Assembly: GCA_026705295.1 (NCBI GenBank)
Contig: JAPPBA010000183.1
Span: 1-55,400 of the forward strand
Direction: 5' to 3'
Length of the DNA: 55,400 nucleotides
From: Candidatus Palauibacter australiensis
Lineage (GTDB): Bacteria; Gemmatimonadota; Gemmatimonadetes; Palauibacterales; Palauibacteraceae
Position 1 is the first letter of the stretch, and each line of letters opens with the position of its first letter. Both the position numbers and the translations under genes were made by a program. Below the pieces are notes generated by a model that searched no databases, was not told the origin of the DNA, and saw only the letters and a list, made by a program, of their open reading frames with translations. This document shows, piece after piece, positions 74 to 2,392 of the stretch.

Positions 74-1603
74 TTACCAGAAGACGATGTAGAGGACGGC
101 GGCTCCCGCGATCACGCCGCCGGCCCAGAGTCCCGCGCGGGGGGCGGGCGTCAGGTCCACGCCGTCCGCGGCGCGCGGAAGCCGGCGCGGGGCATCGAGC
201 GGGCGCGCGCGCGTCACGAGGACGATGTACGCGCTGATCGCCAGGAAGGTGATCGCCATGTGGTGGAGGAACGCGACCTCCGGCAGCAGCCACAGGAGGA
301 GGCCGTAGACGGGGATCCCGAGCACCATCCCGCCGAAGGCGGCGGCCGGTGGCGTGCGCGGCGCGAAGATGCCGAACAGGAACGCGGCCACGATCCCCGG
401 CGAGATGAACCCCCAGAACATCTGGATGTACTCGAACACGCTCGGCGCCCGGGCCACGACCGGCGCCCACAGGCACGCCACCACCACGAGCACACCCGTC
501 GTCACCCGTCCCACCACCATCAGCCGGCGCGAGGACGCTCCGGGTCGCAGGTGCCGCTTGTAGAGGTCGACGCTGAAGATCGTCGCCGCCGAGTTCAGCA
601 TCGAGTCGAGCGAACTCATCACCGCCCCGAACAGCGCCGCGAACATGATCCCCGTCAGCCCCGCCGGGAGGAGTTCCCGCATCATCACCGGGTAGGCCTG
701 GTCCGGGTTCGTCACCTGATCGGCGAACAGCTCCGCCGCCATGATCCCCGGAAAGATGATGATGAACGGGATGAACAGCTTGATGAAGCCGGCCAGGAAG
801 AGCCCCCGCTGCCCGTCCGCCAGACTGCGCGCCGCCAGCGTGCGCTGCGTGATGAACTGGTTCAGTCCCCAGTAGAAGATGTTGGGGATCCACAGTCCGC
901 CGATGAAGACGGCCAGCCACGGCATCTCCGGGTGGTTGAAGGGCAGGACCGTGTGGAGCTTGCCGTCCGCCGCCTCGAGGAAGGGACCGATGCCGCCCAT
1001 GGCCCGGAACCCCAGTACGGTGACGAGCACGCCGCCGAGGAGGAGCGCCACCCCCTGGAGGAGGTCGGACCACACGACCGCCTTGAGTCCGCCGTAGATG
1101 GTGTACCCGCCCGCGAGCACGCCGATGAGCCAGATACCCGTCCCCGTGTCGAGGCCGAAGATCGACTCCAGGGCGAGCGCGCCCGAGTACAGCACCGTCG
1201 CCAGCGCCACAAGTACGTACGCCGCGAGGATGAAGCCCGCCATCAGGGTGCGCGTGCGCACGTCGTAGCGGAATTCGAGGTACTCGGGGATGGTGTAGAT
1301 CCCCGCCGCGAGGAAGCGCGGGAGGAAGAAGAGTCCGACGAGGACGAGGGTGACGGCCGCCATCCACTCGTAGCTCGCGATCGCGAGGCCGATGTCGTAG
1401 CCCCGCCCGGCCATCCCCACGAAGTGCTCCGTCGAGATGTTCGACGCGATGAGCGAGAAGCCGATCAGCCACCACGGCAGATTGCGCCCGGCAAGAAAGT
1501 ACCCCGCCGCGTCGCGCCGCCCCCGCGAGGCATACAGCGACACGCCCACGACCAGCACCAAGAACCCCGCGAACGCCGCAACGTCCAGCGGCCGAAAGTT
1601 CAC
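74..1603 (-). CDS. Sodium:solute symporter (SSS/SLC5 family)
   Basis: This is a 509-residue inner-membrane protein of the sodium:solute symporter family, which couples Na+ entry to uptake of a small solute such as a sugar, amino acid or vitamin. The sequence shows a first hydrophobic helix near residues 8-24, then the segment AGRNLPWWLIGFSLIASNIS, which is typical of the start of the LeuT-fold core. More than ten further hydrophobic stretches follow, and the length fits the family (about 500-550). The start is GTG at 1603, only 7 nt after the stop of the DUF2007-like gene, so it is probably the last gene of an operon beginning at the OsmC-like gene (2296). The substrate cannot be read from the sequence. 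Family call is firm; specificity is open. Confidence 0.9.
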   Translation of the reverse strand: MNFRPLDVAAFAGFLVLVVGVSLYASRGRRDAAGYFLAGRNLPWWLIGFSLIASNISTEHFVGMAGRGYDIGLAIASYEWMAAVTLVLVGLFFLPRFLAAGIYTIPEYLEFRYDVRTRTLMAGFILAAYVLVALATVLYSGALALESIFGLDTGTGIWLIGVLAGGYTIYGGLKAVVWSDLLQGVALLLGGVLVTVLGFRAMGGIGPFLEAADGKLHTVLPFNHPEMPWLAVFIGGLWIPNIFYWGLNQFITQRTLAARSLADGQRGLFLAGFIKLFIPFIIIFPGIMAAELFADQVTNPDQAYPVMMRELLPAGLTGIMFAALFGAVMSSLDSMLNSAATIFSVDLYKRHLRPGASSRRLMVVGRVTTGVLVVVACLWAPVVARAPSVFEYIQMFWGFISPGIVAAFLFGIFAPRTPPAAAFGGMVLGIPVYGLLLWLLPEVAFLHHMAITFLAISAYIVLVTRARPLDAPRRLPRAADGVDLTPAPRAGLWAGGVIAGAAVLYIVFW

Positions 1604-1610
1604 ACTTGTC

Positions 1611-1829
1611 TCACGTCATCGCGTCGCGGAGGGTCTGCCTCGCTTCTTCGTGCCGACTCGCGGGCACGCGGAGGACTTTCGCGGCCGCCGTCGGGCCCCA
1701 GGAAACCGGCGCGAACTCCCCTTCGACCCGGAAGGGGATGTCGCCGGCTTCGAGGGCGAGCCTCGCCGCGAGGAACTCGCTCTCGTCCCATGCTTCGAAT
1801 ACGCGGACCATGTCGTCGCTCCGCGTCAT
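1611..1829 (-). CDS. DUF2007-like small signal-transducing-type protein
   Basis: This 72-residue protein has the look of the DUF2007 (putative signal transducing protein) family: VFEAWDESEFLAARLALEAGDIPF matches the usual 'access two sources of a single polypeptide, look for the shorter-lived copy' helix in which short proteins begin with a strand, then a helix containing E.A..A...LE..GIP. Its function is not known. Its ATG at 1829 overlaps the stop of the OsmC-like gene (ATGA), which points to translational coupling. An internal ATG at 1811 (MVRVFEAW) is an alternative start. It lies between the OsmC-like gene and the symporter in a three-gene leftward operon. No signal peptide or membrane helix is visible, so it is probably cytoplasmic. 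The family assignment is from pattern recognition only. Confidence 0.6.
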   Translation of the reverse strand: MTRSDDMVRVFEAWDESEFLAARLALEAGDIPFRVEGEFAPVSWGPTAAAKVLRVPASRHEEARQTLRDAMT

Positions 1830-2296
1830 GAAGCGGCCGGCGTCTCTTCGATGTCGGCGGTCCAGGTCACCTCGATCGCGCCCTCGAGCGAGCGGGCGGT
1901 GGGGCACTTCGCGCGGTGGCTGGCGAGGGCGCGCTCCACCGTCTCCCGGGCTTCGGCGGGGATGCGGAGCCGGTAGTGGACGATGATTTCCTCCAGCGTC
2001 GGCATGCGGTCGCGGAGGCGGTTGATCCCCTCCACTTCGGCGACGATGTCCTCGGGGGCCAGGCGGATGCCGCGCACTTCCAGTGCGCCGTTGAGCGTGC
2101 CCAGCATTCAGGCTCCCGTCGCGGCCACCTGGTAATCGACCGGAAGCGGCAGGTCCTTCGCGTCGATCCGGTAGTGGGACTTGATGGGACCGTGGACTCC
2201 GAAGTCGATCTCGGTCCCCTCTTCGAGGCGGGCCCGGCGATGCACGCCCTTGACCTTCTCGAGACGCGCGCGGGCGGTGTAGAACGGTTCGGACAT
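1826..2296 (-). CDS. OsmC-family protein with in-frame UGA: candidate selenoprotein (Sec63)
   Basis: OsmC/Ohr proteins are homodimeric thiol peroxidases that use two conserved cysteines against organic hydroperoxides. Translation from ATG 2296 (AAGGAGAG ribosome site 7-8 nt upstream) gives 62 residues ending VDYQVAATGA, then TGA at 2110-2108, then without frame change MLGTLNGALEVRGI and 79 more residues. Read through, the product is 156 residues, the normal family length. The TGA falls at the first conserved Cys (family pattern AA.GAC...). The second Cys is present as C131 in KCPTARSL. A hairpin follows the TGA (2072-2088). The simplest reading is selenocysteine at position 63; OsmC-like selenoproteins are known from marine metagenomes. 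A nonsense-mutated pseudogene or two split ORFs are the alternatives. It is first gene of an operon with the DUF2007-like gene and the symporter. Confidence 0.8.
2072..2088 (-). promoter_or_regulatory. Candidate bacterial SECIS hairpin
   Basis: On the coding (minus) strand the sequence GCGCAC-TGGAA-GTGCGC forms a perfect 6-bp stem with a 5-nt loop. The loop begins about 26 nt after the UGA of the OsmC-like gene and has G at its second and third positions. Bacterial SECIS elements are hairpins just downstream of UGA, with a small apical loop carrying a G near its 5' side and 16-37 nt between UGA and loop. This matches that description. In such G+C-rich DNA short hairpins are common, so the case depends on the combination with the UGA and the Cys alignment. 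Confidence 0.65.
2108..2110 (-). other. Recoded UGA codon (putative selenocysteine)
   Basis: In-frame TGA read on the minus strand between GGA GCC and ATG CTG of the OsmC-like gene. It sits where the family has its peroxidatic cysteine. The next codon is ATG, so re-initiation after termination is formally possible, but the downstream fragment alone would lack the N-terminal strands of the fold. Confidence 0.7.
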
Positions 2297-2392
2297 GACG
2301 TGCTCTCCTTTGCGGGACCTGCTTGCCTGCCGCATTTTCGGGCGGCGAGATTCGGGCGTGACGCGCAAACGAAACGATCGAGAGCGGCCACA

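Follow-up and report, generated by a model that had tools for sequence, protein, structure and literature searches.

Candidate selenocysteine-containing OsmC-superfamily proteins with a UxxGT motif in Candidatus Palauibacter and related bacteria

Introduction

A gene of the OsmC superfamily in the genome of Candidatus Palauibacter australiensis carries a TGA codon within an otherwise continuous reading frame, and the question raised by this locus is whether the TGA is a lesion, a stop, or a codon read as selenocysteine (Sec), and, if the last, whether the protein belongs to an OsmC selenoprotein family that is already in print. The window analyzed here is the whole stretch of 55,400 nucleotides from contig JAPPBA010000183.1. 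An OsmC-like selenoprotein has been published, with three sequences from the Sargasso Sea in the available text of one report (PMC1088965), five Sec forms against 161 cysteine (Cys) forms and the motif UxxT in the available text of the GOS survey (PMC2398784), and one OsmC-like entry each, with UxxT, in the available text of reviews from 2022 and 2026 (PMC9312934, PMC13188914). From the comparative evidence given below, the window gene almost certainly encodes an OsmC-superfamily selenoprotein in which UGA codon 63 is recoded as Sec, a reading that rests on the conservation of the UGA, the compensatory changes in the SECIS hairpin, the complete selenocysteine machinery, the membership in OsmC, and the predicted fold. 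A bacterial selenoprotein with a SECIS element is a known kind of gene, and what is added is the UxxGT family itself.

Organization of the gene and its neighbors

An earlier reading made from the letters of the window (the sequence-only reading) had joined the two parts on either side of the TGA into one full-length OsmC protein, and this is borne out by translation and by the Pfam match, which at 48.5 bits against a gathering cut-off of 27.5 places the protein in the superfamily (Table 1). The TGA at residue 63 is the single internal stop of the frame, and plain gene calling splits the gene into two ORFs. The ribosome site that had been proposed for the upstream part is present as a Shine-Dalgarno-like AGGAGA, and the second conserved Cys that had been described as intact is read as Cys131.

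Table 1. Coordinates of the selenoprotein gene, its signals, and its neighbors in the window
Feature	Coordinates	Strand	Evidence
OsmC-family selenoprotein gene, predicted 156 residues with Sec63	1826..2296	(-)	translation; Pfam OsmC PF02566 1.2e-12
Own stop codon TGA of the OsmC-family selenoprotein gene	1828-1826	(-)	
In-frame TGA, residue 63, probably read as selenocysteine	2108..2110	(-)	TGA conservation; aligns with first Cys of 1ukk
Codon of Cys131, presumed resolving cysteine	1904..1906	(-)	invariant, 49-row protein alignment
AGGAGA, Shine-Dalgarno-like site, 7 nt before ATG	2304..2309	(-)	read from sequence
Small ORF, 72 aa; ATG overlaps selenoprotein stop	1611..1829	(-)	
Sodium:solute symporter, downstream neighbor	74..1603	(-)	Pfam SSF PF00474 5.3e-74
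Candidate SECIS hairpin: 7-bp stem, loop GGA (2081-2079)	2072..2088	(-)	

The tight coupling to two further genes that the sequence-only reading described holds in the window, where the stop TGA of the selenoprotein gene shares bases with the ATG of the small ORF (ATGA at 1829-1826) and the symporter gene lies adjacent, but does not extend beyond close relatives. Among 80 related loci, 8 have a homologue of the small ORF beside the OsmC gene and 9 have the symporter, and in all of these the OsmC protein is at least 88% identical to that of the window, so the coupling, being kept in close relatives only, says little about function. The small ORF gave no Pfam match at E ≤ 0.001. Clustering of the neighbors in the 80 related loci yielded no usable signal, the largest cluster comprising 21 loci and the clusters apparently consisting mostly of GC-rich DNA read in the wrong frame, and no conserved neighbor pointing to a peroxide function was found in these loci. 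A plasmid search gave no match, and an Rfam scan of positions 1500-2500 at E ≤ 10 returned a single match to an unrelated family (E 9.1). When a crude codon score was used to rank TGA read-through candidates in the window, the list had 213 places and the TGA at residue 63 came third; eight other candidates, once translated, resemble Arg-rich translations of a wrong frame or the normal ends of genes.

Conservation of the TGA and spread of the family

Codon 63 is TGA in 176 of the 176 family loci among 179 loci inspected, the window gene included, and these 176 loci represent 136 distinct genes. The loci come from three sets that overlap in genomes, with TGA in 66/66 family loci (69 inspected), 80/80, and 30/30, and the reduction to distinct genes took the 176 TGA loci only. 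The second set consists of the best 80 of 431 relatives found by a scan of genome contigs; the pattern used for the contig scan, GT[LF][NG]GALE[VA], overlaps the hairpin at the protein level and demands neither a TGA nor particular codons. Three of the 69 loci were set aside, namely L087 and L088, which are distant OsmC genes with TGC and alignment scores of 96 and 80 against at least 194 for the family, and L091, which is a chance match. One isolated TGA in a draft assembly could, taken alone, be put down to a pseudogene or a sequencing error, a Cys codon having turned into a stop by chance, but the same TGA recurs in every one of the family loci across many assemblies, and the 19 columns that are invariant over 49 family proteins flank it on both sides, which leaves this explanation with hardly any probability. 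The preference of the sequence-only reading for recoding over error or mutation is therefore upheld, and relatives with a plain Cys codon at this position, which that reading would have taken as telling against recoding, were not seen in the family loci.

The family comprises two paralogue groups, both of which occur in the host genome. The window gene belongs to group I, and the host group II gene (L052, G000:C21:6708-7163), whose protein is 35% identical to that of the window, likewise has TGA where the Cys codon would stand, together with a similar 7-bp hairpin. The relatives are found in Candidatus Palauibacter, in other Gemmatimonadota, and in Acidobacteriota and Eisenbacteria MAGs, with a few under other phylum names, and relatives in three bacterial phyla have the TGA at the same codon. 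Where it occurs the family is common: in a sample of 100 genomes, host included, 57 matched the protein, and after exclusion of two with weak matches outside the family (G056 and G094), 55 carry it. In a quick tree, the group I genes L107, L114, and L115 (Acidobacteriota) and L154 and L159 (Eisenbacteria) stand among Gemmatimonadota genes, a placement suggestive of horizontal transfer or misassigned bins.

Among 396 genomes of the Acidobacteriota, all 31 matches of at least 131 bits carry one TGA; after these come a 75-bit fragment that does not include residue 63 and, at 56 bits, a TGA-containing partial match, and none of the matches at or below 39 bits has a TGA. Similarly, 129 of 395 genomes of the Gemmatimonadota, the phylum of the window, match the protein, and among the matches listed each shows at least one TGA, counted anywhere in the match. 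A Cys orthologue was not seen among the genomes examined (the best 80 of 431 relatives and the samples of two phyla). The codon counts lean slightly toward a family that is Sec-only throughout, and the leaning is kept slight because it is these 80 relatives and two samples that were covered.

Evidence for a SECIS hairpin

The sequence-only reading had described a hairpin with SECIS-like geometry after the TGA, within positions 2040-2110, and the hairpin located here lies inside that region, its stem beginning 19 nt and its loop 26 nt from the TGA. With the TGA numbered 1-3, positions 23-29 pair with 33-39 and the loop GGA lies between them. An alignment of 52 distinct hairpin sequences from 66 loci was compared with 500 shuffles, and paired cells amounted to 94.8% against 90.3% in the shuffles, cells changed on both sides to 23 against 8.7, and the covariation score to 0.228 against 0.147, with none of the 500 shuffles as high in any of the three measures. 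Two other measures were not raised in these 52 hairpins: doubly changed pairs numbered 2, a value that 119/500 shuffles reached, and further pair types numbered 4, which 500/500 shuffles reached (shuffle mean 5.3). When the partners were slid by 1-3 columns, double changes disappeared and the score did not exceed 0.097.

The compensatory changes are clearest in two pairs. Over the 136 genes, the 27/35 pair is A-T in 90 and G-C in 37, A27 being matched by T35 in 90/90 cases and G27 by C35 in 37/41 (the others T in 2 and G in 2), and the 26/36 pair is C-G in 122 and T-A in 8. Position 27 falls third in its codon, which usually specifies Ala, and position 35, eight bases on, is the second position of a Val or Ala codon, so protein selection alone would not easily explain the link between them. 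In addition, GCA makes up 90 of the 128 Ala codons at positions 25-27 and 6% of 2243 elsewhere in the family genes.

The bSECIS rule, as printed in the available text of PMC13188914, specifies a loop of 3-9 nt, a stem of 4-16 bp, a distance of 16-37 nt from the UGA, a G in the first two loop positions, and an energy of -7.5 kcal/mol or lower. The window gene, for which the sequence-only reading had suggested a bSECISearch run, agrees with it (-9.7 kcal/mol, loop GGA, 26 nt), and the compensatory changes come in addition to this geometry. Altogether 131 of the 136 genes conform, compared with 312 of 2720 synonymously recoded controls (11%); at -9 kcal/mol the counts are 127/136 genes and 57/680 controls, and at -12 kcal/mol the rates are close (5/136 and 17/680). 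Two of the conforming genes, L201 and L202, do so through a different hairpin. Five genes of group II (L053, L054, L055, L057, and L058) fail the rule as coded, their usual hairpin being broken. By eye, a shorter stem, GGGC-GGA-GCCC, lies nearer the TGA in these five genes, an arrangement that would fit a register shift of the SECIS. The fold of the 46 nt after the TGA in the window is no better than that of shuffles (z 0.06), and the 23-nt hairpin piece alone, a segment chosen after the fact, folds at -12.2 kcal/mol with z -3.25. On the comparative evidence the hairpin is real, and it shows clear compensatory changes inside a coding sequence.

Selenocysteine machinery and decoding of the UGA

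The host genome (Candidatus Palauibacter, Gemmatimonadota; 3.58 Mb, 188 contigs, 95.5% complete) contains all four genes, selA, selB, selC, and selD, for which the sequence-only reading had suggested a search, and the absence of selB and tRNA-Sec, which it would have counted against recoding, was thus not observed. The tRNA-Sec scores 79.7 bits against a cut-off of 47 and has the anticodon TCA, and SelB (376.9 bits), SelA (488.1), and SelD (370.3) each lie above their own cut-off, with tRNA-Sec, SelA, and SelB together on one contig (C39). The host SelD (L019, G000:C123:5588-6514) contains a TGA of its own, at the GAGUACK motif, and is likely a selenoprotein; the 51 nt after that TGA have a predicted fold of -23.9 kcal/mol, calculated with no shuffle control.

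Only above-cut-off matches of the tRNA-Sec and SelB models were counted, because both models match weakly in all 14 control genomes, where matches above the cut-off number 5 for tRNA-Sec and 2 for SelB. Counted in this way, tRNA-Sec is present in 17 of 18 family-carrying genomes, some of them Acidobacteriota and Eisenbacteria, the other being a MAG (G409) that has a family gene and no tRNA-Sec above the cut-off. In the sample of 100 genomes, SelB is found in 53 of the 55 genomes with the family and in 32 of the 45 without it (Fisher p 0.0005, shared descent ignored). The two family-carrying genomes with no SelB above the cut-off, G033 and G036, are 81% and 91% complete and lie in 510 and 180 contigs. 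The model RF00031 (SECIS_1) gave no match in the host or in the 14 control genomes and is therefore uninformative.

These observations also bear on the possibility that the TGA is read otherwise, by a reassigned UGA or near-cognate suppression, or marks a programmed stop after a 62-residue product. Any selenoprotein gene may be expected to give some truncated protein as well, and to that extent a short product would fit, but reassignment of UGA is opposed by the TGA with which the same gene terminates, and the half downstream of the TGA, with Cys131, is conserved at the protein level. The complete Sec machinery of the host, the hairpin with its compensatory changes and bSECIS geometry, and the position of the TGA on the catalytic Cys column all argue against either form of this explanation, which is very improbable. 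From the same sequence evidence we infer that selenium is inserted into the window protein.

Fold, active site, and proposed reaction

An alignment of 49 of the 66 family proteins has invariant columns that include Tyr6, Gly17, Arg20, Gly33-Val34-His35, Asp54, position 63, Gly66-Thr67, Arg75, His127, and Cys131-Pro132. The AlphaFold model, built with Cys at position 63, has a pLDDT of 96.2 and adopts the OsmC/Ohr fold. The entry 2onf matches in Foldseek with E 2.9e-9 and is the best match in VIA-align 2 (Z 15.7, rmsd 2.0 over 138 residues), and the 50 Foldseek matches listed are OsmC, Ohr, and OsmC-like proteins, a few of them titled structural genomics, redox, or hypothetical protein. The second-best fold match is the OsmC-like 1ml8, which we take to be E. 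coli YhfA (Z 14.2, rmsd 2.0, 129 residues); unlike the window protein, to which it is 19% identical, it has Cys at the aligned position. In alignment with Thermus OsmC (1ukk), position 63 and Cys131 fall on its two Cys, which agrees with the earlier proposals that the TGA replaces the first conserved Cys and that OsmC homologues have Cys at this residue. The family shares with the Cys-based organic hydroperoxide reductases Ohr and OsmC the fold and the two conserved redox positions, but the first of these, which is Cys in Ohr and OsmC, would be Sec in every family member inspected.

The catalytic Glu of Ohr stands 10 residues before its Cys, and Asp54 sits 9 residues before position 63, one off by that numbering; the Glu is not clearly matched. 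The Ohr active site is described with Arg19 and Glu51 in the available text of PMC5962072, and the invariant Arg20, which is spaced much like Arg19, is a plausible counterpart of the former. With Asp54 one position off the Glu and Arg20 a plausible match, we infer the peroxidase mechanism by analogy with Ohr, and the Sec63 protein is probably an organic hydroperoxide peroxidase, its activity, substrate, and reductant being those that the analogy would predict.

The proposed sequence of events would begin with Sec-tRNA(UCA) made by SelA and SelD, followed by binding of SelB to the hairpin downstream of the UGA and delivery of the Sec-tRNA to codon 63, so that the ribosome would pass the UGA and complete the protein. 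Sec63 would then stand at the place of the peroxide-reacting first Cys of OsmC/Ohr, with Cys131 at the second, and would most likely reduce an organic hydroperoxide while being converted to a selenenic acid. The selenenic acid would form an Se-S bond with Cys131, and a dithiol, which as in Ohr may be dihydrolipoamide, would return Sec63 to its starting state.

A selenoprotein with another role, such as a reductase for a different oxidant, a protein of persulfide or selenium transfer, or a redox sensor, is a less probable but serious alternative. It would be consistent with the identity of 11-22% to solved OsmC/Ohr proteins, with the Ohr Glu that has no clear match, with the scores of the window protein and its paralogue L052 below the cut-offs of the NCBIfam families that they match, and with the lack of conserved neighbors in the related loci. 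Against it stand the invariance of both redox positions and an invariant Arg20 whose match to the Ohr Arg19 is suggested by its distance, and the peroxidase reading is the one favored here.

Relation to published OsmC selenoproteins

The statement in the sequence-only reading that OsmC-like selenoproteins had been reported is correct as far as such a family is in print, but the window gene would not belong to it. The NCBIfam model NF041052, OsmC-related (seleno)protein, is taken here as the model of the Sargasso Sea and GOS family (PF02566, UxxT). Both families lie in the OsmC superfamily and share a putative Sec at the first catalytic Cys and a bacterial SECIS, but the published one has UxxT and many Cys homologues, whereas the window gene has UMLGT and its relatives UxxGT, with no Cys homologue found in the genomes examined. 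Plain membership in the published family would be in line with NF041052 being the NCBIfam model matched by most members (38/49 at E ≤ 0.01, best 7.5e-10), but almost as good a match is given by TIGR03562, a Cys family (29/49, best 8.2e-10), and the window protein reaches 21.4 bits and L052 13.7 bits against the curated NF041052 cut-off of 95.

The published kind is itself represented in the sample, since the NF041052 cut-off is exceeded by a protein in two of the 396 Acidobacteriota genomes, one of them with a TGA (L203, G792:C43). This gene scores 169.6 bits, has one TGA, and reads FULLTQ, that is, UxxT, which makes it a true NF041052 selenoprotein, and the same genome encodes a UxxGT family gene as well. 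In a tree of 73 Sec representatives and 23 others, made by a quick method and with long branches flagged, all 73 UxxGT Sec rows fall on one side of a branch with SH-aLRT 96, and L203 falls among Cys proteins. The score of 21.4 against 95 bits, the motif UxxGT in place of UxxT, and this separation in the tree together indicate that the family is very probably distinct from the NF041052/UxxT family and forms a second OsmC selenoprotein family, and membership in the published one is correspondingly improbable. A description of a UxxGT OsmC family was not found in the open-licence literature, outside which most subscription journals lie.

Somewhat favored is a Sec-only branch of OsmC that arose separately from the UxxT selenoproteins, was split by duplication into two paralogue groups, occurs in at least three phyla, and has no surviving Cys orthologue. 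If so, a peroxidase-like scaffold would have become selenium-dependent, unlike the usual pattern given in the available text of PMC1088965, where Sec forms turn up sporadically beside widespread Cys forms, and if Cys forms are truly absent, the branch would offer a natural test of selenium versus sulfur in the OsmC active site. A fold is also predicted after the TGA of L203, calculated without a shuffle control.
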